Below, in pieces: positions 1 through 21,546 of a stretch of DNA of 34,087 nucleotides. Position 1 is the first letter of the stretch, and each line of letters begins with the position of its first letter. The notes under the pieces are model-generated. The model searched no databases. It saw nothing but the letters and a program-made list of their open reading frames with translations, and was not told the DNA's origin. The stretch comes from Gemmatimonadota bacterium. Its GTDB lineage: Bacteria; Gemmatimonadota; Gemmatimonadetes; Gemmatimonadales; Gemmatimonadaceae. The position numbers were made by a program, and so were the translations under genes. Location of the stretch: assembly GCA_947471365.1 (NCBI GenBank), contig CANIWQ010000020.1:1-34087 (forward strand), in the 5' to 3' direction.

Positions 1-82
1 GTAGCCGGCGACGTACTTGATCGGCGTCGTGGGCTAGTTCGAGGAGTGGGGCGTTCGTGTAGTAGTCGAGCAAATCCTTCAT
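1..82 (-). CDS. mqnC: MqnC, dehypoxanthine futalosine cyclase (partial, N-terminus only)
   Basis: Only the first 27 codons are inside the window; the gene continues past the left edge. The ATG is at 82-80 and the translation begins MKDLLDYYTNAPLLELAHDA, followed by DQVRRRL. The 'APLLELA..AD.VRRR' pattern is typical of the N-terminal helix of MqnC-type radical-SAM enzymes, before their CX3CX2C cluster motif. MqnC cyclises dehypoxanthine futalosine in the futalosine pathway to menaquinone. The call is supported by mqnA and mqnE directly upstream on the same strand. The 109-bp spacer 83-191 holds no ORF that I would call and no clear Shine-Dalgarno. With so few residues the family call is probable rather than certain; another radical-SAM paralogue of the pathway is the main alternative. 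Confidence 0.7.
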   Translation of the reverse strand, partial: MKDLLDYYTNAPLLELAHDADQVRRRL

Positions 83-191
83 GGCGGGCTCAGAGTTGGG
101 TCAATAGCAAAACACGCGTCCGGTATTGCGTGATCCGTTTTCGGTAATCCGACATCGAACAACGATCCCCGACCAATAGCAGCTACTCCAC

Positions 192-1040
192 CTACGCCAC
201 CGCGAGAAACGCGAGTCGCCCGGGCGGAACCTTTCCTGCCACCGTGAGCCGCCGGTAGAACTCGGTGAGGCCGCCCAAATGCGGGTAGCTGAAACCGTAG
301 TCGAGGCCGGCGAAATAGTCGAGACAGGCGACATAAGGCACTGACGTGCGCTCAGAGGCCTGACGCGCCAGAATGTCGAGATGTGTCAGCCCCCAGTCCC
401 GACTCTGCATCAAGGCGGCATGGACCGCGAGTGCCTTGGCGGTGTCCGCGGTGCGTTGCGCCACCCACACGGCAAACACAAAAGGGAGCCCAGTCCATCG
501 CTTCCACTCTTCACCCAGATCATACGCGTGGGCGTAGGGCGAAGGCATCGCCCCCGACCGCAGCATGAGCGCGGCGTCGCCGATCACCAGACGTGCGGCG
601 ATACCATCACGGCCATCCTCAGCACCGGCCATCGCCCCGCGGAGTTCCGCGGCCTCGGCGTCGCCCGGCACGAACTCCGGCGTGGTGCCCCACACGTGCT
701 CAAACAACAGTTCCAGTAAATGCACACTCGTCATGGAGCTTCGGCTGACGAGCACCCGTTTGCCGCCCAGTGCCTCGGCGGGCTCGTGCGAAAACAGCAT
801 GACGCTCTGCACTGCCCCGTCGCAGGAAATCGCGAGATCCGGCAACAAGAGATAGCGTTCCCAGTCGCGCGCGTACTCAACGGCCGACACCACGCTCACG
901 TCGAGCTCGCCGCGTGCCATCATCTGATTGAGCGCGCTCGGGACGCCATCCACCAGCGTGCCGTTGAGTGGCACCAGTCCGCGATCAACGCCCCCGTACA
1001 CCGGGTAGCAGTTGATATACGGAATGCGACCGACGCGCAT
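192..1040 (-). CDS. mqnA: MqnA, chorismate dehydratase of the futalosine menaquinone pathway
   Basis: This 282-residue protein belongs to the MqnA/MqnD periplasmic-binding-protein-like fold family. MqnA dehydrates chorismate to 3-[(1-carboxyvinyl)oxy]benzoate, the first committed step of the futalosine route, in the cytoplasm. The N-terminus MRVGRIPYINCYPVY is the family signature (R-G-x-Y-N-x-x-P-like start), and the segment ARGELDVSVVSAVEYAR is the second conserved stretch of the substrate-binding lobe. Length is normal for the family (about 270-290). The ATG at 1040-1038 follows the mqnE stop by 2 bases, so the two are surely co-transcribed and probably translationally coupled. The product is the substrate for MqnE, encoded immediately upstream. 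MqnD is the nearest paralogue, but the conserved IPYINCYP start favours MqnA. Confidence 0.9.
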   Translation of the reverse strand: MRVGRIPYINCYPVYGGVDRGLVPLNGTLVDGVPSALNQMMARGELDVSVVSAVEYARDWERYLLLPDLAISCDGAVQSVMLFSHEPAEALGGKRVLVSRSSMTSVHLLELLFEHVWGTTPEFVPGDAEAAELRGAMAGAEDGRDGIAARLVIGDAALMLRSGAMPSPYAHAYDLGEEWKRWTGLPFVFAVWVAQRTADTAKALAVHAALMQSRDWGLTHLDILARQASERTSVPYVACLDYFAGLDYGFSYPHLGGLTEFYRRLTVAGKVPPGRLAFLAVA

Positions 1041-1042
1041 GG

Positions 1043-2227
1043 CTAGGCCGGCACCGGAACGGGCGCGGCCGCATCGAACGTACGCAGGATGTTGTAAAAC
1101 GAATCGCGCTCCGCCGGGATCTTGCCGGCACCGCGAATGAGCCCGAGGATGGCATCGAGCGTCATCGCCTGCGGTGTGTGGGCACCCACGGCATGGTAGA
1201 TCTTTTCACGGACCACCGTCCCTTCGAGATCATTCACGCCAAAGTGCAACGCCACTTGCGACACGGCTTGCGAGACCATGATCCAGTGGCTCTTGACGTG
1301 TGCGAAGTTGTCGAGAAAAAGTCGCCCGACCGCGAGCATCTTGAGATCGTCCACGCCGCCGGTGGCTTGTCCCTGCCGCAACAACTCGCGGCCGAGTTCG
1401 TTGTCGTCCGGATGATAGGCGAGCGGGATATACGCTAAGAAGCCGCCGGTTTCATCCTGAAGATCGCGGAGCATTTGCAGATGTTCCATCCGGTCATCGA
1501 GCGTCTCGACGTGGCCGTACAGCATCGTGCAGTTGGAGCGAATCCCCAGCGCATGGGCGGCGCGATGCACCCCGATGTAGTCCGCGCCGGCGAGCTTCTT
1601 GCCAGCAATCCGGTCGCGCACCGCCGCGCTGAATGTTTCGGCGCCACCGCCGGGCATGGTGTCGAGTCCGGCCTCGCGCAGCGCGATGAGCACGTCGGTC
1701 CACGACATTTTCTCGATGCGCGCAATGTGTGCGATCTCGACCGCCGTGAGGGCCTTGATGTGGACGTGCGGGAAATTCGATTTGAGCGCGCGGAACATCT
1801 CTTGGTAGTACGCCAGCCCCGCCTGCATATCGAGGCCGCCCACGATATGAAACTCGCGGGTCAGACCGTCGGCGGCGTTGGAGGCCTCCCCGAGCACTTG
1901 CGCCAGCGTGTAGCGATACGCCCCCGCTTCCTTGGGCAAGCGCGCGTATCCGCAAAACGTGCAGGTCGTGCGCAGGACGCAGATGTTCGTGGGATTGATG
2001 TGCTGGTTGGACGCGAAGGTCACCACGTCGCCATGCTTGGCACGATTCACGGCGTCGGCGAGCGCGCCAAGGCCAAGGAGATCATGCGAGCGATACATCG
2101 CGTGGCCATCGGCCTGATCGAGGCGCGTTCCCGCCACAAGCTTGCTGCCAATGCGACGCAGCGCCGGGTCACTGACGGTGGGGAGGGCCAGTTCCGCCAG
2201 CGCTGCGATGGTTCCTGCCGATGCCAC
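1043..2227 (-). CDS. mqnE: MqnE, aminofutalosine synthase (radical SAM) with an atypical CX5CX2C motif
   Basis: The 394-residue protein is a radical-SAM enzyme that joins the MqnA product to S-adenosylmethionine to give aminofutalosine. Family hallmarks are HINPTN before the cluster motif, FCGYARL after it, EFHIVGG, and PGGGAETFS. The cluster cysteines are C83, C89 and C92, so the motif reads C-V-L-R-T-T-C-T-F-C (CX5CX2C) instead of the CX3CX2C known for MqnE; deleting the two threonines restores the usual form. Translation starts at a GTG (2227-2225), 2 bases after the fabF stop; the next in-frame ATG lies at codon 44 and would cut conserved sequence. Its neighbours place menaquinone synthesis at the tail of the fatty acid operon. 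MqnC is the closest alternative, but length and the PGGGAETFS region favour MqnE. Confidence 0.88.
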   Translation of the reverse strand: MASAGTIAALAELALPTVSDPALRRIGSKLVAGTRLDQADGHAMYRSHDLLGLGALADAVNRAKHGDVVTFASNQHINPTNICVLRTTCTFCGYARLPKEAGAYRYTLAQVLGEASNAADGLTREFHIVGGLDMQAGLAYYQEMFRALKSNFPHVHIKALTAVEIAHIARIEKMSWTDVLIALREAGLDTMPGGGAETFSAAVRDRIAGKKLAGADYIGVHRAAHALGIRSNCTMLYGHVETLDDRMEHLQMLRDLQDETGGFLAYIPLAYHPDDNELGRELLRQGQATGGVDDLKMLAVGRLFLDNFAHVKSHWIMVSQAVSQVALHFGVNDLEGTVVREKIYHAVGAHTPQAMTLDAILGLIRGAGKIPAERDSFYNILRTFDAAAPVPVPA

Positions 2228-2229
2228 GG

Positions 2230-3474
2230 CTACGCTCGGTATCGCCGGATGGCCAAGCTCACGTTGTGACCGCCGAAGCCCGACGAGTTGCTCAGTGCGG
2301 CGCTAATGTCGCGCTTGACTGGCACATTCGGCGTGCAATCCAAATCGCACTCCGGGTCGATCGAACTCAGGTTAATCGTGGGCGGCACAACGCCGTTCAC
2401 GATGGCCAACGTGGTGAGAATCGCCTCGACAGCTCCGGCCGCGCCCAGCATATGGCCGGTGGCGCTCTTGGTGGAGCTCACGTTCAGGGCGGTGGCGTTC
2501 GGGCCGAACACGGCCTTGATGGCGCGAATCTCGTTTGGATCATTGAGCGGCGTGCTCGTGCCGTGCGCATTGATGTACTGCACGTCACTGGGAAGAAGCT
2601 TGCCGTCCTCGAGCGCCCGACGCATCGCGCGCTGCAACCCTTCGTGATTTTCAGGCTGGCCGGTGAGATGGTAGGCGTCGCCCGTCGCGCCATAGCCCGC
2701 GAGTTCGCCGTAGATGCGGGCGCCGCGGTTGAGCGCATGCTCGAGCTCTTCGAGGATGACGACCCCCGATCCTTCGCCCATCACAAAGCCATCACGCGCC
2801 ACGTCAAACGGCCGACTCGCCGTCTCCGGCGAATCGTTGCGCGTCGACAACGCCTGCATGTTGGCAAAGCCACCAACCGCCATCGGGGTCACCGAGGCTT
2901 CGGTGCCGCCCGCAATCATCACGTCGGCGTCTCCGTACTGAATCATGCGGTACGATTCACCAATCGCATGTCCGCTCGTGGCGCAGGCCGACTGAATCGC
3001 GAAGTTCGGCCCACGCGCCTTGAAGCGCATGGACACCACGCCAGCCGCAATGTCGCCGATGAACATGGGGATGAAAAACGGCGAAATGCGATTCGGCCCC
3101 GCGTCGCGAAACACGTCGTGCTGTGCCTCAAACGTGGTGAGCCCGCCGATTCCGCTACCGATCACCACGCCGGTGCGCTCGGGCGTATAGCCCTCGCCTT
3201 CACCAAACCCGGCGTCGCGCATGGCCTGCACCGCCGACGCCATCGCGTACTGGGTGTAGAGATCGGTGCGCTTGGCTTCCTTGCGGTCCATGTAGTCGGC
3301 GATGTCGAAGTTCTTCACCTCGCACGCGAACCGCACCTTGAACCCACTCGCGTCAAACCGAGTAATCGGTCCGCCACCGGACTTGCCGGCCAAAACGGAC
3401 GCCCACGTGCTCGCCACATCGTTACCGATGGGCGTGAGACATCCGAGTCCGGTAACGACGACGCGACGCGACAT
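2230..3474 (-). CDS. fabF: FabF, beta-ketoacyl-ACP synthase II
   Basis: This 414-residue condensing enzyme elongates acyl-ACP with malonyl-ACP in the cytoplasm. The complete catalytic set of a KAS I/II enzyme is visible: nucleophile C164 in QSACATSGHA, H304 in INAHGTSTPLND, K336 in SSTKSATGHM and H341. The N-terminus RRVVVTGLGCLTPIGNDV and length are standard. ATG at 3474-3472 overlaps the acpP stop by one base (TGATG), so FabF is coupled to its own carrier protein, as in many bacteria. The TAG stop is followed after 2 bases by the mqnE start. KAS II rather than KAS I is suggested by position next to acpP; FabB cannot be excluded from sequence alone but is unlikely outside proteobacteria. Confidence 0.96.
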   Translation of the reverse strand: MSRRVVVTGLGCLTPIGNDVASTWASVLAGKSGGGPITRFDASGFKVRFACEVKNFDIADYMDRKEAKRTDLYTQYAMASAVQAMRDAGFGEGEGYTPERTGVVIGSGIGGLTTFEAQHDVFRDAGPNRISPFFIPMFIGDIAAGVVSMRFKARGPNFAIQSACATSGHAIGESYRMIQYGDADVMIAGGTEASVTPMAVGGFANMQALSTRNDSPETASRPFDVARDGFVMGEGSGVVILEELEHALNRGARIYGELAGYGATGDAYHLTGQPENHEGLQRAMRRALEDGKLLPSDVQYINAHGTSTPLNDPNEIRAIKAVFGPNATALNVSSTKSATGHMLGAAGAVEAILTTLAIVNGVVPPTINLSSIDPECDLDCTPNVPVKRDISAALSNSSGFGGHNVSLAIRRYRA

Positions 3475-3713
3475 CAGCCGCCGATCTTCCCGTTGAGGTA
3501 GCCGATCGCGTCACCAACGGTGCGCAACTTCTCGGCGTCTTCGTCCGGAATGTCGATGTTGAACTCCTTCTCGAACTCCATGACCAGCTCGACGATGTCG
3601 AGGCTGTCGGCGCCAAGGTCTTCGATGAAGCTCGCTTCCGGGGTGAGCTTATCGCGCTCGACGCCGAGCTCCTTCTCGATGATGTTTTTGACCTTCTCCG
3701 AATGATCAGCCAT
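3474..3713 (-). CDS. acpP: Acyl carrier protein
   Basis: This 79-residue acidic protein carries growing acyl chains on a 4'-phosphopantetheine attached to S37 in [10 protein letters not shown], the universal ACP motif. The reading frame is open further upstream, but the ATG at 3713-3711 ([12 protein letters not shown]) is chosen because it gives the normal ACP length and is preceded by a good Shine-Dalgarno (GAGGA, 8 bases before the ATG). The longer in-frame start at 3779 would add 22 residues unlike any ACP. A 69-bp spacer separates it from fabG, the largest gap among fabG, acpP and fabF; it could hold an extra promoter to raise ACP levels, though I do not see a convincing one. The stop overlaps the fabF start by one base. 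Confidence 0.96.
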
Positions 3714-3782
3714 GTCCGAAATCCTCGGTCGTATTTGGGGTGGGACAACCTGCAGAAATATAGTCGGCGGACGCCGCAACCG

Positions 3783-4523
3783 TTACATCGCCAGCCCGCC
3801 GTCCACCACCAGTACCTGCCCGGTAATGTACGAGGCGGAGTCACTGCTCAAAAACGCCACGGCCCGGGCGACATCGGACGGTGATCCCAGCCGCTCCAGA
3901 GGGATCTCCTGGCTCATCGCGGTACGGGCTTCGGGCGCCATCGCGGCCGTCATATCCGTTTCGATGAATCCAGGGGCCACGGCATTACACAGGATATTCC
4001 GTGATGCGAGCTCCCGAGCGACCGACTTGGTGAGGCCAATCAGCCCGGCCTTGCTCGCCGCGTAATTCGTCTGCCCCTTGTTCCCCATTAGGCCGACCAC
4101 ACTGGTGATGTTGATGATGCGCCCCCAGCGACGCTTCATCATACCGCGGCTCGCGGCACGGGTGGCCACAAACGCGGAGCGGAGGTTGGCATTGATCACC
4201 GCATCCCAGTCCTCGTCCTTGATGCGGAGCATCAGGTTATCGCGGGTGATGCCAGCGTTGTTCACCAGAATGTCGAGCGACCCACACCGCTCCTCGACCG
4301 CGGCGACCAGCGCCGTGACCTCGGCGGGGACACTCACGTCGCATCCGAACCCCAGCGCCCCCCCGCCGATCTGTGCTGCCACGTCTTCGGCCTTGGCCGC
4401 GTCACGGCCAACGATCGCCACGCGGGCACCACATTCGGCCAGCGTCAGCGCGATCGCATGACCGATCCCCCGTGTGCTGCCGGTGACGAGTGCGACCTTT
4501 CCGGTCAAATCGATATTGATCAT
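3783..4523 (-). CDS. fabG: FabG, 3-oxoacyl-ACP reductase
   Basis: This 246-residue short-chain dehydrogenase reduces 3-oxoacyl-ACP to 3-hydroxyacyl-ACP with NADPH. The Rossmann dinucleotide motif TGSTRGIG is at residues 14-21, the structural NNAG at 88-91, and the catalytic triad is S141, Y154 and K158 in the order expected for the SDR family. The C-terminus ITGQVLVVDGGLAM is the characteristic FabG end. The ATG at 4523-4521 is preceded by a purine-rich GGGAGAAGAG stretch. It sits 25 bases after fabD and upstream of acpP, the conserved fab order, which supports FabG over other SDR reductases. Confidence 0.96.
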   Translation of the reverse strand: MINIDLTGKVALVTGSTRGIGHAIALTLAECGARVAIVGRDAAKAEDVAAQIGGGALGFGCDVSVPAEVTALVAAVEERCGSLDILVNNAGITRDNLMLRIKDEDWDAVINANLRSAFVATRAASRGMMKRRWGRIINITSVVGLMGNKGQTNYAASKAGLIGLTKSVARELASRNILCNAVAPGFIETDMTAAMAPEARTAMSQEIPLERLGSPSDVARAVAFLSSDSASYITGQVLVVDGGLAM

Positions 4524-4548
4524 AGCGTCTCTTCTCCCAATGCCGCGG

Positions 4549-5484
4549 TCAGCCGAACGTGGCCAGTAGCGACTCGACGTCCGCTACCGTGCCGCAGGTA
4601 CGTGCCGGATTGTTTGGCGCGAGTCGCTTGAGGAGCCCCGTCAGGACGTTCCCTGGCCCCATCTCCACGAACGTCGCGCCGGGGTGCTCGGCCGCCATGG
4701 CCTGAATCACCTGTACCCAGCGCACGGGGCTCGTCAGTTGTTCCGTCAGCAGGCGCCGCGCCGTGGTTTCGTCGGCGACGCGCTGTGCGGTGACGTTGGA
4801 ATACACCGGGTAATGGGGGTCCGACCACCGCGCGCCGGTGAGTGCGGCGTCCAGTCCAACAGCGGCTGGTGCCATCAACGGCGAGTGAAAGGCGCCGCTC
4901 ACCGTGAGACGGAGCGTCCGCTTGGCCCCAGCGGCCTTCGCCAGCTCCATCGCCCGCTCGACGCCAGCGACTTCCCCCGAAATCACGATCTGCTCGACAG
5001 CATTATAGTTGGCTGGGACCACCTCGCCGGCCTCGCTCGCCTCTCGGCAGATATCCTCAATCGGTCGATCGAGCACGCCCAGAATGGCCGCCATCGCGCC
5101 AGGGCGCGCCGTGCCAGCCTCGAACATCAACTCGCCGCGCCGCCGCACCAGTTTCACCGCATCTTCGAGTGGCAAGGCGCCCACGGCGTGGTAGGCCGTG
5201 AACTCGCCGAGCGAATGTCCGGCCGCCGCTCGCACGGCTGGCGCCACTCGCTCGCGCACGACGGCCCATACGGCCGCTCCGTGAGCCAAGAGCGCGGGCT
5301 GCGCATTATGCGTGAGCGTGAGTTCTTCGGCGGGCCCTTCAAAAGCGAGCGTGCTGAGCGAGGTGCCGAGCGCCGCATCGGTGCGCGCCCACACGTCGCG
5401 GGCGGCCGGAAATGCATCGACCAGATCTTGAGCCATGCCGGGCTTCTGCGAGCCCTGGCCGGGAAATAAGAGAAGGAGGTCCAC
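4549..5484 (-). CDS. fabD: FabD, malonyl-CoA:ACP transacylase
   Basis: This 311-residue acyltransferase moves malonyl from CoA to ACP to supply the condensing enzymes. The N-terminal FPGQGSQKPGM, the nucleophile elbow GHSLGEF with S91, the conserved arginine region RRRGELM (about 114-120) and the catalytic histidine in SGAFHSPLM (near 200) are all present. Translation starts with GTG at 5484-5482; the next in-frame ATG is inside the FPGQGSQKPGM motif, so no better start exists. No clear Shine-Dalgarno precedes it: the upstream spacer is short ordinary sequence followed by a tandem repeat that reaches back to the fabH stop. This suggests FabD translation may depend on context other than a standard ribosome binding site. 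Confidence 0.95.
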   Translation of the reverse strand: MDLLLLFPGQGSQKPGMAQDLVDAFPAARDVWARTDAALGTSLSTLAFEGPAEELTLTHNAQPALLAHGAAVWAVVRERVAPAVRAAAGHSLGEFTAYHAVGALPLEDAVKLVRRRGELMFEAGTARPGAMAAILGVLDRPIEDICREASEAGEVVPANYNAVEQIVISGEVAGVERAMELAKAAGAKRTLRLTVSGAFHSPLMAPAAVGLDAALTGARWSDPHYPVYSNVTAQRVADETTARRLLTEQLTSPVRWVQVIQAMAAEHPGATFVEMGPGNVLTGLLKRLAPNNPARTCGTVADVESLLATFG

Positions 5485-5520
5485 GAAAGTCGGGTTGAAC
5501 GTCGGTTGCGAAGTGAAGAG

Positions 5521-5595
5521 TGCCGGCGCGGTGCGCTAGCGGTGCCGGCGCGGTGCGCTAGCGGTGCCGGCGCGGTGCGCTAGCGGTGCGCTAGC
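5521..5595. repeat. 22-bp tandem repeat (three full copies plus a partial) in the fabH-fabD spacer
   Basis: Three identical 22-bp units lie at 5521-5542, 5543-5564 and 5565-5586. Each contains an 11-mer GGTGCGCTAGC followed, in the circular unit, by the 11-mer GGTGCCGGCGC. A fourth copy of GGTGCGCTAGC is at 5585-5595, only 11 bp after the third. The last copy covers the fabH TAG stop codon and final cysteine codon. Both 11-mers contain 6-bp palindromes (GCTAGC, GCCGGC). Perfect identity between units points to recent expansion by slippage or unequal recombination. Confidence 0.95.
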
Positions 5596-6580
5596 AGCGC
5601 ACGACCATCGAGCCCCACGTGAACCCAGCGCCGAACGCCACAAACAAAACTACCGCTCCGTCTTTCACACGCCCCGCTTTGACGGCCTCGTCGAGGGCAA
5701 TGGGAATCGATGCAGCCGACGTGTTGCCAAAACGGTCCACATTGACGAACACTTTTTCCATGGGGATTCCCGCATGCTTGGCCGTGGCTTCGATGATGCG
5801 CACGTTGGCCTGATGCGGGATGAGCAGGTCGATATCGGCGGCCGACATCTTGGCGCCGTCGAGTGCGCGGTCGCACGCATCGGCCATGGACCGCACGGCG
5901 TTCTTGAACACCTCGCGGCCGCTCATGTGAATCTTGTCGCTTCCCTCGGCGATGATCTCCGGCGTGCTCGGGTCCGCGGCACCACCTTTGGGGCGATGCA
6001 ACAGATTGGCCAGCGTACCGTCGCTCCGCATGTACGCGGAGAGAATCCCGCGCCCCTTCGTGGAACGCTTGAGCACGGTGGCGCCTGCGCCATCACCAAA
6101 TAATACGACCGTGTTGCGGTCTTTCCAGTTGATGATGCGCGTCAGCAACTCCCCGCCAATCACGAGGATTGTTTCGGCGTTGCCCGAGGCCATCAATCCT
6201 TCCGCGACCTGCATGCCATAGAGCCAGCCGCTGCAGGCGGCACTCAGGTCAAAGGCGGCGGCCCGCGTGGCGCCAAGGGCAGCCTGAATCTCAACGGCAG
6301 TCGACGGAAGCAAATGATCTGCTGACGCCGTGCCGAGAATGATCACGTCTAACTCCGCGGCGGTCACACCGGCGGCCTGCATCGCAAGCCGTGCGGCCTC
6401 CGTGGAAATGGAGGTCAGCGTTTCATCGGGACCGGCGACATACCGATAGCGAATGCCGGTGCGGTCGCGAATCCACTCATCGTTCGTCTCAAGGCCGAGC
6501 GCAAGAAACTCGTCGTTGGACATCCGACGTTTGGGGACGGCATAGCCGGTTCCCGCGATCATCGCGAATGGACGTTTCAT
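5591..6580 (-). CDS. fabH: FabH, beta-ketoacyl-ACP synthase III
   Basis: This 329-residue thiolase-fold enzyme starts fatty acid synthesis by condensing an acyl-CoA with malonyl-ACP. The catalytic triad is complete: C116 in DLSAACSGWL, H256 in LIPHQANVRI and N286 in DRFGNTSAAS. The C-terminal GAGFTWGSMVV is the family end. The last residue is a cysteine whose codon, with the TAG stop, lies inside the 22-bp repeat tract, so the terminus may have been shaped by the repeat. The ATG at 6580-6578 is 22 bases after the plsX stop. Order plsX-fabH-fabD is the conserved fab arrangement. Acyl-CoA preference (acetyl or branched) cannot be read with certainty. Confidence 0.96.
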   Translation of the reverse strand: MKRPFAMIAGTGYAVPKRRMSNDEFLALGLETNDEWIRDRTGIRYRYVAGPDETLTSISTEAARLAMQAAGVTAAELDVIILGTASADHLLPSTAVEIQAALGATRAAAFDLSAACSGWLYGMQVAEGLMASGNAETILVIGGELLTRIINWKDRNTVVLFGDGAGATVLKRSTKGRGILSAYMRSDGTLANLLHRPKGGAADPSTPEIIAEGSDKIHMSGREVFKNAVRSMADACDRALDGAKMSAADIDLLIPHQANVRIIEATAKHAGIPMEKVFVNVDRFGNTSAASIPIALDEAVKAGRVKDGAVVLFVAFGAGFTWGSMVVRC

Positions 6581-6602
6581 CGTTGGGCTCGCGCCTGTGA
6601 GG

Positions 6603-7628
6603 CTAGGACTGGGCTACGGAGGTCTGATGCTGTGACAGCCGCTGACCGATGTGGTCGCTCATGCGCGACTCCACGGTCCGGGCGGCCACCTGCACCGCGT
6701 TCTTAATGGCCACCGCCGACGATTTTCCGTGACAGATGATGCTGACGCCTTTCACGCCAAGGAGCGGTGCGCCGCCGACGGATGCGTAGTCGAGGTGCTG
6801 CAGTCCGCGTGAGAGTTGTTCTTTGCTGACGCCGCCTTTGGCCAGCAACCCGACGACCATCGGCGCCATCCCTTCGTACAGCTTGAGGACGACGTTCCCC
6901 ACAAAGCCGTCGCAGACCACGACGTCGAAGACGCCACGGTCGCTGATGCCGGCGGGGACGTCGCGTCCCTCGATGTTGCCGTGGAAGTTCAGCCCTGACG
7001 CCGCAAGCAACTGGTGCGTTTCTTTGACGGCCGCATTGCCTTTTTCGGGCTCCTCGCCAATCGACAAGAGACTCACCGACGGGTTTGGCCGGCCCAGAAC
7101 ATCTTCGGCATAGATGGCGCCCAGGCGCGCGAAGATGACCAGTTCCTCGGGCGAGCAATCGACGTTGGCGCCGGAGTCGAGCACGACCACGGATTGCCGT
7201 GCGGTGGGCAACAACGTGCTGATGGCCGGACGTTTGACGCCGTCGTGCACTTTGAGAATGAAAGCCGAGGCCGCCATTTGTGCGCCGGTGTTCCCGGCGG
7301 AGACAAAGGCGTCCGACTTGCCTTCCGGCTGGAGGCGTAAGCCTACCGCCATCGAGCTGTTGGGCTTGCCGCGAATAGCAACCGACGGTTTATCCGTCAT
7401 TTCAATGACGTCGTCGGCATGCACGATGTCCAGCGCGCGCGAGACGTCACGGAACTCCGCATACTCGGTCGCCAAAAGGCGCTCGAGTTGTTCGCGGATC
7501 ACCGCTTCGCGGCCAATCAGCTGAATCGTGTGGGTCGAACCAAACTCTTGGAGGGCGAGCAACGCGCCGGCGATTGGAGCCGCCGGCGCGAGATCACCGC
7601 CCATCGCATCGAGGGCGATGCGAGCCAA
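6603..7628 (-). CDS. plsX: PlsX, phosphate acyltransferase
   Basis: This 341-residue enzyme converts acyl-ACP to acyl-phosphate for PlsY, linking fatty acid synthesis to phospholipids; it acts at the inner face of the membrane. The N-terminus after the start is ARIALDAMGGDLAP, the family signature. The frame stays open to 7937 but that extension runs through rpmF and has no homology character. I place the start at a TTG (7628-7626), 2 bases after the rpmF stop, because it gives exactly the standard N-terminus and has an AAAGGA Shine-Dalgarno 9 bases upstream inside the rpmF end. The internal ATG at the MGGD motif would remove a conserved strand. A rare TTG start may tune expression. Confidence 0.93.
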   Translation of the reverse strand: MARIALDAMGGDLAPAAPIAGALLALQEFGSTHTIQLIGREAVIREQLERLLATEYAEFRDVSRALDIVHADDVIEMTDKPSVAIRGKPNSSMAVGLRLQPEGKSDAFVSAGNTGAQMAASAFILKVHDGVKRPAISTLLPTARQSVVVLDSGANVDCSPEELVIFARLGAIYAEDVLGRPNPSVSLLSIGEEPEKGNAAVKETHQLLAASGLNFHGNIEGRDVPAGISDRGVFDVVVCDGFVGNVVLKLYEGMAPMVVGLLAKGGVSKEQLSRGLQHLDYASVGGAPLLGVKGVSIICHGKSSAVAIKNAVQVAARTVESRMSDHIGQRLSQHQTSVAQS

Positions 7629-7630
7629 GG

Positions 7631-7813
7631 TCAGGCTTCCTTTGCTGCGACCCGCTGTTTGCCGGCGTAGTACCCGCACTCCGCACACACACGGTGCGGA
7701 CGCTTTGCGGAACCACACTTCGGGCATGCCTGAATGGCAATCGCCGGCGCCTTTTTGTGCGTGTTGCGGGCGCGCTTCTTTCGCTTCGATGTCCTTCTCT
7801 TCGGGACGGCCAT
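7631..7813 (-). CDS. rpmF: Ribosomal protein L32
   Basis: This 60-residue basic protein is the L32 component of the large ribosomal subunit. The start MAVPKRRTSKRKKRARN is diagnostic. It keeps the zinc-ribbon cysteines (CPKC and CAEC, residues about 30-33 and 43-46), so it is the zinc-binding form rather than the cysteine-free paralogue that some bacteria make under zinc limitation. ATG at 7813-7811 lies 3 bases after yceD and its stop is 2 bases before the plsX TTG. The yceD-rpmF-plsX linkage is widely conserved. Confidence 0.97.
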   Translation of the reverse strand: MAVPKRRTSKRKKRARNTHKKAPAIAIQACPKCGSAKRPHRVCAECGYYAGKQRVAAKEA

Positions 7814-7816
7814 GCG

Positions 7817-8293
7817 TTACTCGGTGGCTTGCGGGGCGCAGCTGCAGGCACCCTGGTTCAATTTGGCACCGCACGTCGGGCACAACCCCTTGCAGTCGGG
7901 GGAGCAAAGCACGAAGGCGGGAACTTCCAATACCCATTGTTCACGGAGCGGGGGACGTAAATCCACTGAGGTGCCCTGACGACCAATGGTCAACGGGTAC
8001 ACATCCGGATCACCGTCCTGCTCCGTTTCCGAATCCGCAAAAATGAAATGGGACTCTGCCCCCACCTCCATTTCCACGTCCTGCAAACAGCGTGTGCATT
8101 CCGCAACGGCCTGACCAGCCAAGCGACCGTTGAAGTAAAAACGACCAAGCCCGGCAACCGACACACGTCCGGTTAACCGAATCGCCTTAATCGGCCGCGT
8201 ATCGCCTTCGATCCAAACGGCATCATCGCGGTCGAGTTCGCCGTTGACTTGCACGGCGGCGGCCGTAATAGACTGGGTTGGGAACGACAGCAT
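7817..8293 (-). CDS. yceD: YceD/DUF177 family protein, probable large-subunit rRNA accumulation factor
   Basis: This 158-residue protein belongs to the DUF177 (YceD) family, which is encoded beside rpmF in most bacteria and is linked to 23S rRNA accumulation. It has the central CTRCLQDVEM motif (CxxC) and a C-terminal cysteine-rich tail with CSPDCKGLCPTCG and CSC, which could bind a metal ion such as zinc. The ATG is at 8293-8291. No Shine-Dalgarno precedes it, but a sigma70-like promoter ends 8 bases upstream, so the message may be leaderless. It is the first gene of the fab/mqn operon. Molecular function of the family is not fully settled, so the product name is kept general. Confidence 0.9.
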   Translation of the reverse strand: MLSFPTQSITAAAVQVNGELDRDDAVWIEGDTRPIKAIRLTGRVSVAGLGRFYFNGRLAGQAVAECTRCLQDVEMEVGAESHFIFADSETEQDGDPDVYPLTIGRQGTSVDLRPPLREQWVLEVPAFVLCSPDCKGLCPTCGAKLNQGACSCAPQATE

Positions 8294-13496: not shown

Positions 13497-14870
13497 TCAC
13501 ACGGTGGGGAATGATACGCCCTGCGAGGCGAGCCATCCCGCGACGTCGTCGCGAATGGCGTCCAGTCGCGCCTGACTCAGTGCCTCAAAGCGCACGACCA
13601 GAATCGGTTGCGTATTGGAGGCGCGAATCAGGCCCCACCCATCGCCGTACAGAATACGCACGCCGTCCACATCGATCACGTCGTGACGCGCGCGAAAATA
13701 CGCGGTGGCGGCTTCGACAATCGCGAACTTTCGTTCGTCGGGGCAATCCACGCGGATTTCCGGCGTGGACACATAGTGGGGAATGTCCGCGAGGAGTTCG
13801 TGCACGGGGCGGTTGGCATCGGCGACAATCCGCAGGACGCGCGCCGCCCCATAGATGGCGTCGTCGTGGCCGTAGAACCCTTCAGTAAAAAACATATGAC
13901 CACTCATCTCGCCCGCGAGGGGCGCCTGCAACTCTTTCATCTTTTCCTTGATGAGCGAGTGCCCCGTCTTCCACATCACCGGCGTGCCGCCAGCGGCGGC
14001 GATAGCGTCCGGCAGCGCTTGTGAGCACTTCACGTCGAATATGATGGAATGCCCTGCCCCCGTGCGCGCGAGCACATCGCGCGCATACAGAATGAGCAAG
14101 TAGTCGCCCCAGATGATGGTCCCGTGCGCGTCGACGATGCCAATGCGATCCGCATCCCCGTCGAATCCAATGCCGATGTCCGCCTTTTCCCGCCGCACGG
14201 CCGCAATGAGATCTTGCAGGTTCTCCACCACCGTTGGATCGGGGTGGTGATTGGGAAAGGTGCCGTCGCTGTCCGCAAACAAGAGCGTTGGCGTGATGCC
14301 AAGTCGCGGGAACAGCTGTGGCGCCACCAAGGCGCCGACGCCATTGCCGCAGTCAATCACGGCTTTGAGCGGACGCGAGAGCGGACCGATGCGTGCGACC
14401 ACGTCATCCACATAGCGATCGATGACGGCGGCTTCCTGCATGGTGCCGGCGCCGGACGGAAAGGTGCCGGCCTCGATCAACTGCCGCAGCCGTTGAATCC
14501 CGTCGCCATGTAGCGACGCGGTTCCAACGCAAATCTTGAATCCGTTAAACTCCGGCGGATTGTGCGACCCTGTAATCTGAATTCCGCCGAACACGGGGAG
14601 GTGATGTAACGCCCAGTAGAGCAGTGGTGTCGGAACAACCCCGATATCGATGACACTGACGCCCGTCGCGCGCAGTCCGTGCACTAATGCGTCGCGCAGC
14701 GCCGTTCCGCTCGGCCGATTATCTCGCCCCACGGCGATGCAGGGCGTGATGCCGCGCTCCGCGAGCAGCGCACCGAAACCGCGACCGATGCCTTCCGCGG
14801 CTTCGATCGTGAGATCCTGTCCGACCACGCCACGAATGTCATACTGCCGAAAAATGCCGGGTGCGATCAT
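13497..14870 (-). CDS. Phosphomannomutase/phosphoglucomutase (AlgC-type)
   Basis: This 457-residue alpha-D-phosphohexomutase interconverts the 1- and 6-phosphates of glucose or mannose, feeding cell-envelope polysaccharide synthesis. The phosphoserine loop is TGSHNPPEFNG with S102, the magnesium loop is DGDADRIG with D237, D239 and D241, and the sugar-binding loop is GEMSGHMFF with E321 and S323, all in the order of the PMM/PGM subfamily (AlgC-like). GEMSGH fits dual glucose/mannose specificity. The ATG at 14870-14868 lies just downstream of the terminator that ends the nuo operon, so it needs its own promoter or read-through. ManB and Pgm names would both be defensible. Confidence 0.92.
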   Translation of the reverse strand: MIAPGIFRQYDIRGVVGQDLTIEAAEGIGRGFGALLAERGITPCIAVGRDNRPSGTALRDALVHGLRATGVSVIDIGVVPTPLLYWALHHLPVFGGIQITGSHNPPEFNGFKICVGTASLHGDGIQRLRQLIEAGTFPSGAGTMQEAAVIDRYVDDVVARIGPLSRPLKAVIDCGNGVGALVAPQLFPRLGITPTLLFADSDGTFPNHHPDPTVVENLQDLIAAVRREKADIGIGFDGDADRIGIVDAHGTIIWGDYLLILYARDVLARTGAGHSIIFDVKCSQALPDAIAAAGGTPVMWKTGHSLIKEKMKELQAPLAGEMSGHMFFTEGFYGHDDAIYGAARVLRIVADANRPVHELLADIPHYVSTPEIRVDCPDERKFAIVEAATAYFRARHDVIDVDGVRILYGDGWGLIRASNTQPILVVRFEALSQARLDAIRDDVAGWLASQGVSFPTV

Positions 14871-14880
14871 CGGTCTCTCG

Positions 14881-14919
14881 AAGGAAAACGGGGGCGGAGC
14901 GCGTCAGCGATCCGCCCCC
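14881..14919 (-). terminator. Rho-independent terminator at the end of the nuo operon
   Basis: On the minus strand, 21 bases after the nuoN stop, GGGGGCGGA (complement at 14911-14919) pairs perfectly with TCCGCCCCC (14890-14898) over a 12-base loop, followed by GTTTTCCTT (14889-14881). Stem plus T-rich tail fits intrinsic termination. Confidence 0.75.
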
Positions 14920-14939
14920 AGATGTTCACTACGCAGCGA

Positions 14940-16460
14940 TCAGCGGACGGACGTCGTACCCTGTGGCACCAACGCAGCCACGGGCGGGGTGGGCACGCTG
15001 GAGCGCGTGAGGCGCACCAACCGTGATGGGAAAATCCCGAGCCCGAGGATCGCGGCGATCGTGACGCCAAGGACGACACGCGTCAATTTGCCCGTCGCGG
15101 CAATCTCGACGGCATCCTCGGGGCGTGGCTTCATGAACATCGCGCGAATAACGCCCAGATAGTAGCCGGCGGATACCACCGACGTGAGCACCAACAGCAC
15201 GGCGAGTGGGATCAAATTGTACTGCGTCGTCAACGCGGCTTGCAGCAGATACCACTTGGCAAAGAACCCGACACCGCCGAAGATGGGAAAGCCGAGCAAG
15301 GCGAGCATGCAGGCGGCCATTCCGGCGGCAAGCCATGGGCGCGTCAACCAGAGTCCGTCGTAGTCAGCAATGTTCAGTCCCTGCTCACCCGCGCGACTGA
15401 CCGTAGCGACAACGGCGAATGCGCCGAATGTGGCAAAGGTGTACGCGAGTAAGTAGAACAGAAAGGCCGCCGATCCGAGACGTGAGCCGGCGAGCACCGC
15501 CAAGAGCAGGTAGCCACTGTGTGCGATGCTGGAGTACGCGAGCATGCGCTTGATGTTGCGTTGTGAAAGCGCCACGACGTTGCCCACGATCATCGTGAAC
15601 GCGGCCACCCACCAAAGTGGGGCGAACCATGCGAAGTCGACGAGATTGAAGGCGTCGATCCAGACACGGAAGAATGCCGCGAAGGCCGCCGCTTTGACCG
15701 CCGAGGCCATAAATGCGGTGATCGGCGTCGGCGCACCTTCGTACACATCGGGCGCCCACATATGGAACGGTACGGCTGCCACCTTGAACCCGAACCCAAC
15801 CAGCAAGAGACCGATGCCAACCATCAGCATGGCGTTGTGGTGCAGTTGGTACGAGAAGATGCGTTCGCCGATCACGGTGATGTTCGTCGATCCGGTGGCG
15901 CCGTAGACGAGGGCGATGCCGTACAGCAGAAATCCCGTGGCAAAGGCGCCGAGGAGGAAATACTTCAGCGCCGCTTCCGCCGAACGCTCGGAACGGCGGT
16001 TGATCCCCACGAGCACGTACACGGCAATCGACATCAGTTCGAGGCCGATGAACAGGATCATGAGATCCCGCGCCGCTGCCATAATCATCATGCCGCTGGT
16101 CGCGAACAACACGAGCACATGCGACTCGGCGTACCGAATGCCGTCGCGGACATTGTGCTCAATGCCCAGCGCGATGGTGCCCATCGCCGCCAGCAAGAAG
16201 ATGATGTCGGCCGCCCACCGGAACCGGTCCATGGCAATCACGCCAGGCCCAGCGGTGCCACCCTTGGCGCCAAACCAGAGCACCGAGAGGAAGGTAATGC
16301 CGAGGACGATCAGCGCCCCAAAGCCAACGGTGCGTTGATGGCCTTCACTTTCCGGACGCCACGCCGCGGCGAGCATGAGCAGCATCGCGCCGCCCATCAA
16401 GATGAGATCCGGGGTCAATGCTCCGAGGAGCTGACCGGGAATGAGCAGATCGTAGTTCAT
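14940..16460 (-). CDS. nuoN: NADH-quinone oxidoreductase subunit N
   Basis: This 506-residue antiporter-like membrane subunit of complex I takes part in proton pumping. About 14 hydrophobic helices are visible. The conserved glutamate helix reads FIGLELMSIAVYVLVGI and the lysine helix region reads KVAAVPFHMWAPDVYEGAPT, both hallmarks of the NuoL/M/N family, and the ITAFMASAVKAAAF stretch is typical of NuoN. The ATG at 16460-16458 overlaps the nuoM stop by 4 bases (ATGA). It is the last gene of the operon and is followed by an intrinsic terminator. Confidence 0.96.
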   Translation of the reverse strand: MNYDLLIPGQLLGALTPDLILMGGAMLLMLAAAWRPESEGHQRTVGFGALIVLGITFLSVLWFGAKGGTAGPGVIAMDRFRWAADIIFLLAAMGTIALGIEHNVRDGIRYAESHVLVLFATSGMMIMAAARDLMILFIGLELMSIAVYVLVGINRRSERSAEAALKYFLLGAFATGFLLYGIALVYGATGSTNITVIGERIFSYQLHHNAMLMVGIGLLLVGFGFKVAAVPFHMWAPDVYEGAPTPITAFMASAVKAAAFAAFFRVWIDAFNLVDFAWFAPLWWVAAFTMIVGNVVALSQRNIKRMLAYSSIAHSGYLLLAVLAGSRLGSAAFLFYLLAYTFATFGAFAVVATVSRAGEQGLNIADYDGLWLTRPWLAAGMAACMLALLGFPIFGGVGFFAKWYLLQAALTTQYNLIPLAVLLVLTSVVSAGYYLGVIRAMFMKPRPEDAVEIAATGKLTRVVLGVTIAAILGLGIFPSRLVRLTRSSVPTPPVAALVPQGTTSVR

Positions 16461-18043
16461 CGCCGGGGCTCCGTAGGACCAGCATCCGCGTTGCCGCCCG
16501 ACTCAATCTGTCGCACAAACCGATCGGCGGCTGCTTGCGTTTTCTCGAGGACCGGCTTGGGATAGACACCCAGCCAGAGGATCGCGATGAGCAACGGCAC
16601 GAGCAATGCAATCTCACGCCGATTGAGATCGCTCAAGCCCTTGTTCTCGGGCTTCGTGAGCGGGTTGTAGATGATACGCTGCAACGCCCACAGCAAATAG
16701 GCCGCGGCAAAGATGACGGCGGAGGCCGCGATCACCGAAAAGATAGGCTGCGTGCGATACGTGCCGATCAGCACGAGAAACTCGCCGACGAATCCGTTAG
16801 TGCCCGGAACGCCGATCGAACTCAAACATACGATGGTCAGGATGGTGGCAAAGATCGGCGTGACCGCCGCGATGCCGCCGTAGTCTTCAATGAGGCGCGT
16901 ATGACGGCGCTCATAGATCATGCCGATGAGCAGGAACAGCGCGCCCGTGCTCACGCCGTGGCTCAAGTTCACCATGAGCGCGCCCTGCACCGATTGCGGC
17001 GTCAACGCGAAGATGCCCAGCATGACGAACCCAAGGTGACTCACCGAAGAGTACGCCACCAACTTCTTGAAGTCTGGCTGCACCATCGCCACGAGCGCGC
17101 CGTAGACGATGCCGATGACCGCCAGCGAAAGGAAGAGGAATCGCACGGTCGGATGCATCGCGGCCACTGGGAACAGCGGCAACGCGTATCGGATAAACCC
17201 GAACGTTCCCATCTTGAGCATGATCGCAGCCAGAATCACGGAACCGGCGGTCGGCGCTTCGACGTGCGCGTCCGGCAACCAGGTGTGGAAGGGCCACATC
17301 GGCACTTTCACCGCGAAGGCCAGCGCAAAGGCCGCAAAGAGCCAGAGCTGTTGCACCGAGCTCAAGTGGACGTTGGCCAAGATGTAATCGTAGCTGAACA
17401 CCGGGAGCCCATGCGCGTCGGGCACCTGCAGCCCGAGATACAAAATACCCACCAACATCAGCAACGATCCGACCATCGTATAGACGAAGAACTTGAGACT
17501 CGCGTAGAGACGACGGTTGCCGCCCCAGATGCCGATGATCAAATACATCGGCACGAGCATCAACTCCCAGAACGTATAGAAGAGCACGAGGTCGAGCGCC
17601 ATGAACACGCCGAGCATCCCCGTGGTGAGCACCATCAACAGCGCGTAATAGCTCGGGGTTTTTTCGCGAATGCTCGTCCAGCTTCCCAACACCGCGAGCG
17701 GCATCAAGAGCGTGGTGAGCAGAATGAGCATCTGGGCGATGCCGTCAATGCCGAGTCGCAGGTCCACGCCCCAGTTCGGAATCCACGGGACAAGGAACCC
17801 CGCCTGCCAGAGCGGGCTCGTGCTATTGACCGACCACCAGAGCCCAAGCGAAATGACCGCTTCGACTAGGAACAGCGCCAGCGCCCAACGGCGCGACTCG
17901 CGCATGATGGACTCGGCCGTGGCACCCGCTGGGCGCAGCACCGTACCGCGGAGCAGCAGGAGCGCGGCACCCACGAGCGGCAACGCGAGCAGGACCGGGA
18001 GGATCCAGCTGTTGTAGCCGATGGAGTTTAGGAATGAAGTCAT
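16457..18043 (-). CDS. nuoM: NADH-quinone oxidoreductase subunit M
   Basis: This 528-residue antiporter-like membrane subunit forms one of the proton channels of complex I. The essential glutamate is in LFYTFWELMLVPMYLIIG and the lysine helix with the broken-helix motif in KVPMWPFHTWLPDAHVEAPT. Length and helix pattern are standard. The ATG is at 18043-18041, 15 bases after the nuoL stop, and its own stop overlaps nuoN by 4 bases. Order L-M-N matches the canonical operon, which separates NuoM from its paralogues. Confidence 0.97.
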   Translation of the reverse strand: MTSFLNSIGYNSWILPVLLALPLVGAALLLLRGTVLRPAGATAESIMRESRRWALALFLVEAVISLGLWWSVNSTSPLWQAGFLVPWIPNWGVDLRLGIDGIAQMLILLTTLLMPLAVLGSWTSIREKTPSYYALLMVLTTGMLGVFMALDLVLFYTFWELMLVPMYLIIGIWGGNRRLYASLKFFVYTMVGSLLMLVGILYLGLQVPDAHGLPVFSYDYILANVHLSSVQQLWLFAAFALAFAVKVPMWPFHTWLPDAHVEAPTAGSVILAAIMLKMGTFGFIRYALPLFPVAAMHPTVRFLFLSLAVIGIVYGALVAMVQPDFKKLVAYSSVSHLGFVMLGIFALTPQSVQGALMVNLSHGVSTGALFLLIGMIYERRHTRLIEDYGGIAAVTPIFATILTIVCLSSIGVPGTNGFVGEFLVLIGTYRTQPIFSVIAASAVIFAAAYLLWALQRIIYNPLTKPENKGLSDLNRREIALLVPLLIAILWLGVYPKPVLEKTQAAADRFVRQIESGGNADAGPTEPRR

Positions 18044-18058
18044 GGTCCGGTCGGCGCC

Positions 18059-20224
18059 TTAGTGATACTTGGTGAAGGCGCTCAAGAGCGCGATGACGCC
18101 GATCAGCAGCACCCAAGCGTAGGTGCCAATCTGACCGGACTGCAGTTGCGATCCGAGCCAACCCAGCGCACGAGCCGCGAGGGCGCTGCCATTCACCATC
18201 AGTCCGTCGATGAGTCCAACATCCACGCCCTTCCAGAGGACAACCCGTGAGGTCGCCACGGTCGGCTGAATGATGGCTGCGTCGTACCCCTCATCCACGA
18301 AGTACTTGTGCTCGAGTACACGCGCAAAGCCTGTGGACGCGGGCGATTCCTTTTTGGTGACGAGTGCGGCGGGCTTGAGACGCGTGATCGCGATCGTGAT
18401 GCCCACTACCGCAATGGCAACGGCGATGCCAATGAGCATCTGTTCTGTAGAAACCGATTCGTGTCCTTCCGTGCCCGCAATACGTTTGGTGGCGACGCCG
18501 ACGACTGGCTCCAGCCACTTCTCAAGCGCACCGATTGGGCCGATGGGAATCAGCTCCGGCAAGTTCAGCCAACCGCCAGCGGCACTCGCAATGCCCAGCA
18601 CCACGAGGGGGCCCGTCATGATCCACGGCGCCTCCGCGAGATGCCCCTGCTCCGCCTGTCCCGACCGGTTGGGGCCGTGGAAGGTGTACAGCATCATCCG
18701 TGTCATATAGATGGCCGTGAGGAGTGCTGAGGCGAGTCCAAGCCCCCACACCACAAACAGCACAGTGCCACCAGGCACACCGAGCCAGGTGACTTCGCTC
18801 AGCATCGACCCGTGCGCACGGGCAAAGACGTTGCCGAGGATTTCGTCCTTGGAGAAGAATCCAGCGAACGGCGGAATGCCGGCGATGGCGAGCGTGGCAA
18901 TCCACATCAGCGTCCACGTCACGGGCATGTACTTTCGCAGGCCACCCATGTTGCGCATGTCCTGCGCATCATCGTGGTTGTGCGTGGCGTGATACGCCCG
19001 GTGCATGGCAAAGATCACCGAGCCCGATCCAAGGAACAGCAGCGCTTTGAAAAACGCGTGCGTGACCAGGTGGAACACACCGGCGGTGTACGCACCGACG
19101 CCAACGCCGATGAACATGTAGCCGAGCTGTGACACCGTGGAATACGCCAACACTTTCTTGATATCCCACTGCTTCAGGCCAATGGTCGCCGCAAAGAGCG
19201 CGGTGAGCGAACCCACCACCGCCACCGTCAACGAGGCAACGGGGGCCATCGAGAAGAGCAGTGAGCTGCGCGCAATGAGGTAGACACCCGCGGTGACCAT
19301 CGTCGCCGCGTGGATAAGTGCTGAAACGGGCGTCGGACCCGCCATCGCGTCCGGTAGCCAGATATAGAGCGGGATTTGCGCGCTCTTCCCCGTGCATCCC
19401 AAAAACATGAAGAGGCAGATGGCCGTGATGACCACGCCGCCGAACGGCAGCTTGCCAGCATTCTCCGCGACGCCGGCGAAGTCGAGCGACCCGACATTGG
19501 CGAAGAGCAGGAACATCGCCACGAGGAACCCAAAGTCGCCAATACGATTGACGATGAACGCCTTCTTGCCGGCGTCGGCATTGGCCTTTTCGCTGAACCA
19601 GAAGCCAATGAGCAGATACGAACAGAGTCCGACGCCTTCCCAGCCCACGAACAGCAACGGGTAGTTGCCGCCGAGCACCAGCAGCAGCATGAAAAAGACG
19701 AATAGGTTCAAGTACGCGAAGTACCGCGGGTAGCCCGGATCGTCCTGCATGTAGCCGACGCTGAAAATATGAATCAGCGAGCCCACGCCGGTGATCACGA
19801 GCACCATGACCATGGACAGCGGATCCAACTGCAGCGCGGCGTCAATGTGGAGATCGCCGACCGGCATCCATTGAAACAGCGTGAGGAGATACGGCTCGTG
19901 CATCTCGACGCCGCGCATCGCCACAAAGATGGCGACGGCGAGTGCGAAGGCGAGGAGCAATACGCCGGGGCCGACCAGACTCACGATGCCGGCAAACTTA
20001 TGCCGAGCGGCGTGATGCCCGTGGTCATGATCATGGCCGTGGTCGTCGTGATGCGCGTCGTGTCCGGCGGCCGACGGATCATCGGGGCCGAGCTTGGCAA
20101 CAGCGAGCAGCGACAAGGTGCCATTGATCAAGAAGCCAATCAGCGGCAGGAGCGGAAGGAGCCACACGAATTGCGCGACCGTGGAGGCCAGCGCGTGCGT
20201 GCCAGAGGTAGGGACGGTCATCAT
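18059..20224 (-). CDS. nuoL: NADH-quinone oxidoreductase subunit L, with a histidine-rich loop
   Basis: This 721-residue subunit is the distal antiporter-like unit of complex I and carries the long lateral helix. It shows GWEGVGLCSYLLIGFWF, the lysine region KSAQIPLYIWLPDAMAGPTP and the HAATMVTAGVYLI helix, all typical of NuoL. It is longer than the 613-residue E. coli protein. Part of the excess is a loop at residues 50-76 between the first two hydrophobic segments, where residues 55-75 contain ten histidines and five aspartates. The start has two adjacent ATG codons (20224 and 20221); the first overlaps the nuoK stop by one base. Confidence 0.97.
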   Translation of the reverse strand: MMTVPTSGTHALASTVAQFVWLLPLLPLIGFLINGTLSLLAVAKLGPDDPSAAGHDAHHDDHGHDHDHGHHAARHKFAGIVSLVGPGVLLLAFALAVAIFVAMRGVEMHEPYLLTLFQWMPVGDLHIDAALQLDPLSMVMVLVITGVGSLIHIFSVGYMQDDPGYPRYFAYLNLFVFFMLLLVLGGNYPLLFVGWEGVGLCSYLLIGFWFSEKANADAGKKAFIVNRIGDFGFLVAMFLLFANVGSLDFAGVAENAGKLPFGGVVITAICLFMFLGCTGKSAQIPLYIWLPDAMAGPTPVSALIHAATMVTAGVYLIARSSLLFSMAPVASLTVAVVGSLTALFAATIGLKQWDIKKVLAYSTVSQLGYMFIGVGVGAYTAGVFHLVTHAFFKALLFLGSGSVIFAMHRAYHATHNHDDAQDMRNMGGLRKYMPVTWTLMWIATLAIAGIPPFAGFFSKDEILGNVFARAHGSMLSEVTWLGVPGGTVLFVVWGLGLASALLTAIYMTRMMLYTFHGPNRSGQAEQGHLAEAPWIMTGPLVVLGIASAAGGWLNLPELIPIGPIGALEKWLEPVVGVATKRIAGTEGHESVSTEQMLIGIAVAIAVVGITIAITRLKPAALVTKKESPASTGFARVLEHKYFVDEGYDAAIIQPTVATSRVVLWKGVDVGLIDGLMVNGSALAARALGWLGSQLQSGQIGTYAWVLLIGVIALLSAFTKYH

Positions 20225-20517
20225 CAGCCGCGCAGCAGGTTGATGTTCTGCAGATTCACGGTCTGCTTATGGCGGAAAATCGCGATGATAATGGCGAGGC
20301 CGACCGCTGCTTCGGCCGCCGCCACGGTCATTACGAAGATCACGAATACCTGGCCCGTGGCACCGTACAACTTGGAGAGCGCCACGAACGAGAGGTTGAC
20401 GGCGTTGAGCATCAGCTCCACGCACATGAACACGATGATCGCGTTACGCCGGGTGAGAACCCCGACGACGCCGATCGCGAAGAGCGCTGCGGAGAGCGCG
20501 AGAGACTCAGCGAGCAT
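20224..20517 (-). CDS. nuoK: NADH-quinone oxidoreductase subunit K
   Basis: This 97-residue subunit has three membrane helices and forms part of the proton path. The two conserved membrane glutamates are E34 in [13 protein letters not shown] and E69 in [14 protein letters not shown] place the start at the ATG 20517-20515 ([14 protein letters not shown]), which gives the normal length; the upstream in-frame ATG would add nine unconserved residues. This start overlaps the end of nuoJ by 11 bases, and an AAGAAG purine stretch inside nuoJ could serve as ribosome binding site. Confidence 0.95.
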
Positions 20518-21049
20518 CTGTCTTCTTGGCGAGGACCACCGCACCCATGATCGCGGCTAGCAGCAGCACGCTCGTGAGTTCGAAGGCCAGGAGATATTCC
20601 TTGAACATCGGAGCCGCGATCGACGCGATCACGCCTCCGGTTGGCGGGACGTCCGTCGCGGCGGGAAGCACCAGGCGCAGATCGAGTGGGCTCTTGGTGA
20701 GCGCCATCAACTCGGCGACGAGCGCCAGACCGACGAAACCGGCCAGCAGACGCCCCCACTTCCCTCGCATGTCATTGAGGTCGGCGGGCGAGCCGAGGTT
20801 GAGCAACATGACGACAAACAAGAACACCACCATGATCGCGCCGGCGTACACCAAGACTTGCATCACACCCACAAATTGCGCGTCGAGCATGATGTAGAGC
20901 GCGGCCAACGCGAACATCGTGGCCACCAGCCACATCGCCGCTGCCACCGGGCTCTTGCGCGTGACGAACATGAGCGAGCTGGCGAGCGCCATCAGGCCAA
21001 ATAGGTAAAAATGGAACGAATAGAAGAGGGGATAAAACTGATTAGACAT
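20507..21049 (-). CDS. nuoJ: NADH-quinone oxidoreductase subunit J
   Basis: This 180-residue membrane subunit has five helices and contains the conserved third helix with its pi-bulge, [18 protein letters not shown]. The start is taken at ATG 21049-21047 ([17 protein letters not shown]): it overlaps the nuoI stop by one base (TGATG) and has AGGGGGAG just upstream. The longer reading to 21079 would add ten residues encoded inside nuoI. Length and context match NuoJ. Confidence 0.95.
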
Positions 21050-21546
21050 CACTCCCCCTTCCGGTCGGCAGGATCCCACAGTTCACTGACGGGGTGCGTC
21101 TGCGAGGTGAGGCGCGCGAGATCGTAGACAAACCGATCGCGACTGTATTCGGCGTTCTCGTAGTGGCGGCCCATGTGGATCGCTTCCTCCGGGCACACTT
21201 CCTGGCAGTAGCCGCAGAAAATGCAGCGGAACTCGTCAATCTCGAACACGAGCGGATAGCGGTTCCCTTCCTCGTCCTCGCCCGGCACGAGCTTGATGCA
21301 GTTCGCCGGGCACACCGTCGGGCAGAGACCGCACGCCACACACTTGGCCGTGCCGTCTTCGGTCGTCAGCATGCGATGCGTCCCGCGCCACCGCGGCGAG
21401 ATGTCCCATTTTTCGTCGGGATACTGCACCGTCACCTTGTGAGGATCGATGAGGTGTTTCAGTGTGAGCGCCAATCCTTTGACGGTGGCCCGCACATAAC
21501 TCACCTCCCCCACGGGGCGGTCGACAACTTTCACCCGGATGGTCAT
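21049..21546 (-). CDS. nuoI: NADH-quinone oxidoreductase subunit I (two 4Fe-4S ferredoxin domain)
   Basis: This 165-residue peripheral-arm subunit carries clusters N6a and N6b that pass electrons to N2 in NuoB. The ligands are CVACGLCPTVCP (C69, C72, C75, C79) and CIFCGYCQEVCP (C108, C111, C114, C118). The preceding basic region with HKVTVQYPDEKWDISPR is the family-specific N-terminal part. The ATG at 21546-21544 follows the nuoH stop with no intervening base, and the stop overlaps nuoJ by one base. Confidence 0.97.
   Translation of the reverse strand: MTIRVKVVDRPVGEVSYVRATVKGLALTLKHLIDPHKVTVQYPDEKWDISPRWRGTHRMLTTEDGTAKCVACGLCPTVCPANCIKLVPGEDEEGNRYPLVFEIDEFRCIFCGYCQEVCPEEAIHMGRHYENAEYSRDRFVYDLARLTSQTHPVSELWDPADRKGE

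Follow-up and report, generated by a model that had tools for sequence, protein, structure and literature searches.

A gene for aminofutalosine synthase (MqnE), a radical SAM enzyme, lies on the minus strand at positions 1043 to 2227 of the 34,087-nucleotide stretch analyzed here (the window) and encodes 394 amino acids from a GTG start. Radical SAM enzymes are recognized by the signature CX3CX2C, and the locus raises the question of what to make of an MqnE whose cluster-binding cysteines are spaced differently. The translation of the open reading frame around the motif reads ...NPTNICVLRTTCTFCGYARLPKE..., and the motif itself, read directly from the sequence at 1952 to 1981 on the minus strand, is C83-VLRTT-C89-TF-C92, or CX5CX2C. 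Counted from the GTG, the codons of the three cysteines are 1981 to 1979 (C83), 1963 to 1961 (C89), and 1954 to 1952 (C92). An earlier sequence-only reading had named these three residues and this spacing, and it was correct on both, with the interval 1952 to 1981 matching the motif exactly. The five-residue loop between the first and second cysteines, V84-L85-R86-T87-T88 (1964 to 1978, minus strand), is two residues longer than the loop of CX3CX2C enzymes. Since membership of MqnE otherwise goes with a CX3CX2C motif, it is the CX5CX2C spacing that makes the window protein a variant.

One account would put the six extra bases down to a mistake in sequencing or assembly, or to an insertion acquired recently in the window genome alone, and with 222 contigs the assembly could contain errors. 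However, when bacterial and archaeal species, each represented by one genome, were scanned, CX5CX2C was present in an open frame in all of the best 80 relatives (80/80), which were Gemmatimonadota, with two titles saying only "bacterium." Of 395 Gemmatimonadota genomes searched with an exact degenerate DNA pattern that encodes the CX5 form, 217 had a match (153 of the 286 of good quality), and the reversed control of the pattern had none. The codons encoding the motif varied among relatives. Sequencing error is therefore refuted by the same spacing in the relatives and across the phylum, and the probability left to an error or a recent insertion is negligible.

The distribution within the phylum was then defined further. 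Matches to the MqnE profile TIGR03700 above its cut-off were found in 111 Gemmatimonadota genomes, mostly of the CX5 form. When these were compared by eye with the CX5 pattern matches, for genomes present in both lists, no genome with a full MqnE but without the CX5 pattern was seen in families f1, f2, f3, f4, f7, and f9. In two apparent exceptions (G163 and G238), mqnC is either alone or accompanied by no more of mqnE than a C-terminal fragment. MqnE proteins with CX3CX2C were found in family f8 (L111 and L164) and in a separate group, f10 (L086, L087, L091, L107, and L165). Most genomes of family f5 gave no match, and the f5 matches examined lay in open frames of 849 to 885 amino acids with an FbiC-like look; these were excluded as not MqnE. 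The data indicate that the longer cluster loop is a trait of most Gemmatimonadota MqnE proteins of the futalosine route and not of the window gene alone. According to the sequence-only reading, CX5CX2C in many MqnE proteins across phyla would make the spacing ordinary; none was seen among the four from other phyla that were compared (Streptomyces, Sulfurovum, Paenibacillus, and Pedobacter), all four having CX3CX2C. Scans of viral contigs gave no matches, and the genome relatives of G001 all fell within Gemmatimonadota.

To be a variant MqnE, the protein must first be an MqnE, and this identity was established. In profile searches the window protein scored 421.6 bits with TIGR03700, a near miss of the curated cut-off of 434.55 bits, versus 341.1 for MqnC and 289.2 for CofH. 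Its Pfam domains were Radical_SAM (48 bits) and CofH_C. Among 25 signature positions, defined as conserved in CX3 MqnE and different in MqnC, 24 have an unchanged majority residue in the CX5 proteins. This group departs from the CX3 consensus at L85 and R86, by an extra residue at G286, and at position 240, where it has V and CX3 MqnE has I. An AlphaFold2 model built with MqnE and MqnC rows (mean pLDDT of 86 and pTM of 0.88) found its best PDB matches in 6xig and 6xi9, both MqnE of P. heparinus, with further structural matches to HydE, PylB, HydG, ThiH, and BioB that point to a radical SAM barrel fold. The signature residues and the structural match bear out the earlier statement that the remainder of the protein is well conserved as MqnE. 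An identity as MqnC or CofH was ruled out by the profile scores, the tree described below, and the signature residues. Judged from its sequence, the window protein is an MqnE in its ancestry and in the rest of its residues, and what has changed is the spacing of the defining motif.

The origin of the longer loop was examined on a tree of 43 proteins. The motif had been cut from each of them beforehand to keep the trait from influencing the topology. All 25 CX5 rows formed one clade (bootstrap 100, SH-aLRT 99). This clade was nested within MqnE, whose rows all grouped together (100/99), and adjoined the CX3 MqnE of f10 and of Paenibacillus (93/87); MqnC was separate (97/90). On this topology the loop spacing requires one change of state, which indicates that the two-residue insertion arose once, and several origins are unsupported. 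The CX3 proteins of f8 sit elsewhere in MqnE, outside the CX5 clade, so a return to CX3 within that clade does not seem to explain them. Family f8 belongs to the same class, and its CX3CX2C MqnE suggests a replacement or transfer. Several outside rows were long-branched, which makes the deeper branching order less certain than the CX5 clade itself. Two rows were omitted from later trees: L130, with a branch of 5.29 in the first tree and probably a badly extracted sequence, and L167, which was over-long.

A single origin leaves open how freely the loop has changed since. In 144 distinct genes the first cysteine was followed by V, I, T, or Y, then L, then R (N in 3), then K, N, T, A, H, or R, then T (V in 5), and then C-x-F-C. 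The consensus is C-[VIT]-L-R-[K/N/T]-T-C, in which L, R, and the second T are nearly fixed. At these three positions pN/pS was 0.06 (L85), 0.10 (R86), and 0.12 (T88), with many synonymous changes at the codons, while codons 84 and 87 gave 0.83 and 0.93 and are free to vary. The whole gene gave ∼0.36 and the ten-codon motif 0.24; all of these values are proportions without correction for saturation. L85, R86, and T88 are thus under strong purifying selection, and with 84 and 87 free, the pattern indicates that the loop is maintained at three of its five residues. The sequence-only reading had described the change as the insertion of two threonines (ACG ACC) in the cluster loop. Alignment and tree uphold a two-residue insertion in the loop, but not the two threonines as a unit: position 87 is T in the window MqnE and K or N in most relatives, whereas T88 is conserved. 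The position of the gap is itself ambiguous, as two alignments locate the two "inserted" residues differently. In the AlphaFold2 model a short helical turn is seen at residues 84 to 87, in a region where the mean pLDDT was 77 (residues 81 to 90) and 61 (residues 91 to 100) and no cofactor was included, so that the detail of the loop is to be read with caution. A first model, made from close relatives only, gave a loop pLDDT of <50, which rose when MqnC paralogues were added.

Whether the protein would act in menaquinone synthesis was considered from its pathway context. Directly downstream of mqnE, an mqnA-type futalosine-pathway gene (PF02621; Pfam VitK2_biosynth, E value of 1.3e-65) lies at 192 to 1040 on the minus strand. 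A second PF02621 gene is found on contig C151 of the same genome, making two PF02621 proteins in total. In one relative (L001) the gene order is mqnE-mqnA followed by an mqnC-type gene, and mqnC adjoins mqnE in most relatives. In the window genome mqnC was not found anywhere in the assembly. The window contig stops at base 1, just past the PF02621 gene (window 1 to 192), where relatives carry the mqnC-type gene, and because the contig ends where mqnC would lie, its absence is probably an assembly gap. The missing mqnC could instead be taken to mean that the window MqnE is a nonfunctional or moonlighting paralogue and that menaquinone is made by another route. Against this stand the intact reading frame, the purifying selection on the family described above, and the usual adjacency of mqnC and mqnE in relatives. 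In addition, mqnE is single copy in the window genome, and no MenB was found there above the cut-off, the seven weaker MenB matches probably being other crotonase-family proteins. In cultured Gemmatimonadota the main quinone is MK-8 or MK-9 (PMC8779627), and a preference of Gemmatimonadales for the futalosine pathway has been reported (PMC9426454). These reports, together with the pathway genes of the window genome, make an inactive MqnE unlikely, and the paralogue explanation is very improbable. The CX5 MqnE is therefore very probably active, as the sequence-only reading had suggested it may be, and probably works as an ordinary MqnE despite its unusual loop.

Other genes were noted along the window. 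A fatty-acid synthesis cluster precedes mqnE at 2230 to 8293, with open reading frames that were named by eye as fabF-, acpP-, fabG-, fabD-, fabH-, and plsX-like. Genes for NADH-quinone oxidoreductase subunits NuoD, F, G, H, L, M, and N were identified by profile within 13497 to 27503; a phosphoglucomutase-like gene (13497 to 14870) lies in the same run, and the NuoG-type protein is short, at 516 amino acids. At 29372 to 32854, a protein of 1,160 amino acids combines TolB-like propeller stretches with an amidohydrolase-like C-terminal part.

Taken together, the most satisfactory explanation, and one that we hold with high confidence, is that the window protein is a functional futalosine-pathway MqnE in which CX3CX2C was lengthened to CX5CX2C by a change that went to fixation once, in the common ancestor of a large Gemmatimonadota clade. 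The spacing, its single origin, the selection on the loop, and the MqnE identity are shown by the data above; how the cluster assembles, that the enzyme is active, and what the loop residues do are inferred. The three cysteines would continue to ligate three iron atoms of a single [4Fe-4S] cluster, leaving the fourth iron to bind S-adenosylmethionine. The 5′-deoxyadenosyl radical would then form as usual and add to the product of MqnA, yielding aminofutalosine. The turn after C83 would be lengthened by the extra residues, and L85, R86, and T88 may pack or hydrogen-bond in a way that keeps the cysteines in place. It may be asked whether the longer loop instead changes the chemistry, through a clade-specific substrate, product, or redox behavior such as a more oxygen-tolerant cluster. 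The strong conservation of L85, R86, and T88 would fit, since a strictly neutral insertion would not have to be so conserved, and so would the fixation of the change throughout a large clade. However, structure alone can account for the conservation, the MqnE-specific residues elsewhere are kept, and the gene sits among other mqn genes, so that a change in chemistry seems unlikely. A functional innovation in which SAM or cluster chemistry is altered (redox potential, oxygen tolerance, or radical control), with a spacing convergent with that of HcgA/HmdB, is likewise given a low probability. The preferred reading thus remains an MqnE of conventional function whose cluster loop has been lengthened.

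No description of CX5CX2C in MqnE was found in the literature searched, which was mostly open literature and so gives weak evidence of absence. The CX5 MqnE proteins are a second CX5CX2C group, phylogenetically separate from HcgA/HmdB. With a well-understood enzyme and a solved canonical relative at hand, they also allow the tolerance of the first cluster loop to changes in length to be tested directly. For annotation, methods based on motifs and scores may miss CX5 enzymes, the window protein lying just below the NCBI cut-off.

The nearest known system is the MqnE of P. heparinus (6xi9/6xig), which shares the fold of the window model (TM 0.85 to 0.89), ∼35% identity, and the same signature residues. 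It has CVYDCKFC, a CX3CX2C motif, where the window protein has CVLRTTCTFC, and the two align across the motif with a single two-residue gap in the cluster loop. HcgA/HmdB of methanogens, which act in [Fe]-hydrogenase cofactor biosynthesis, have CX5CX2C in common with the window MqnE but differ in family and reaction. Published work presents this spacing as exclusive to HcgA/HmdB (PMC10100467, PMC3087415) or terms it the less common HmdB motif (PMC9431491), and the sequence-only reading was right to cite HmdB as a precedent for noncanonical spacing. HcgA with CX5CX2C is reported to contain a [4Fe-4S] cluster and to form 5′-deoxyadenosine from SAM (PMC10100467). Membership of HmdB itself was rejected for the window protein, as its TIGR03957 score of 34.5 bits is far below the cut-off (320.9) and the match (residues 215 to 368) excludes the motif. 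Convergence is the most likely reason that the two share a spacing. The MqnC encoded in the same gene cluster is also a radical SAM protein of the CofH/MqnC group and is 30 to 35% identical to the window MqnE, but unlike the adjoining CX5 MqnE it has CX3CX2C in every locus read, and so the longer loop is not general among Gemmatimonadota radical SAM proteins of that group. A longer first loop with the canonical cluster site retained is known from QueE, with CX14CX2C (PMC4389238), where the insert is much longer than that of the window MqnE and the family is different.
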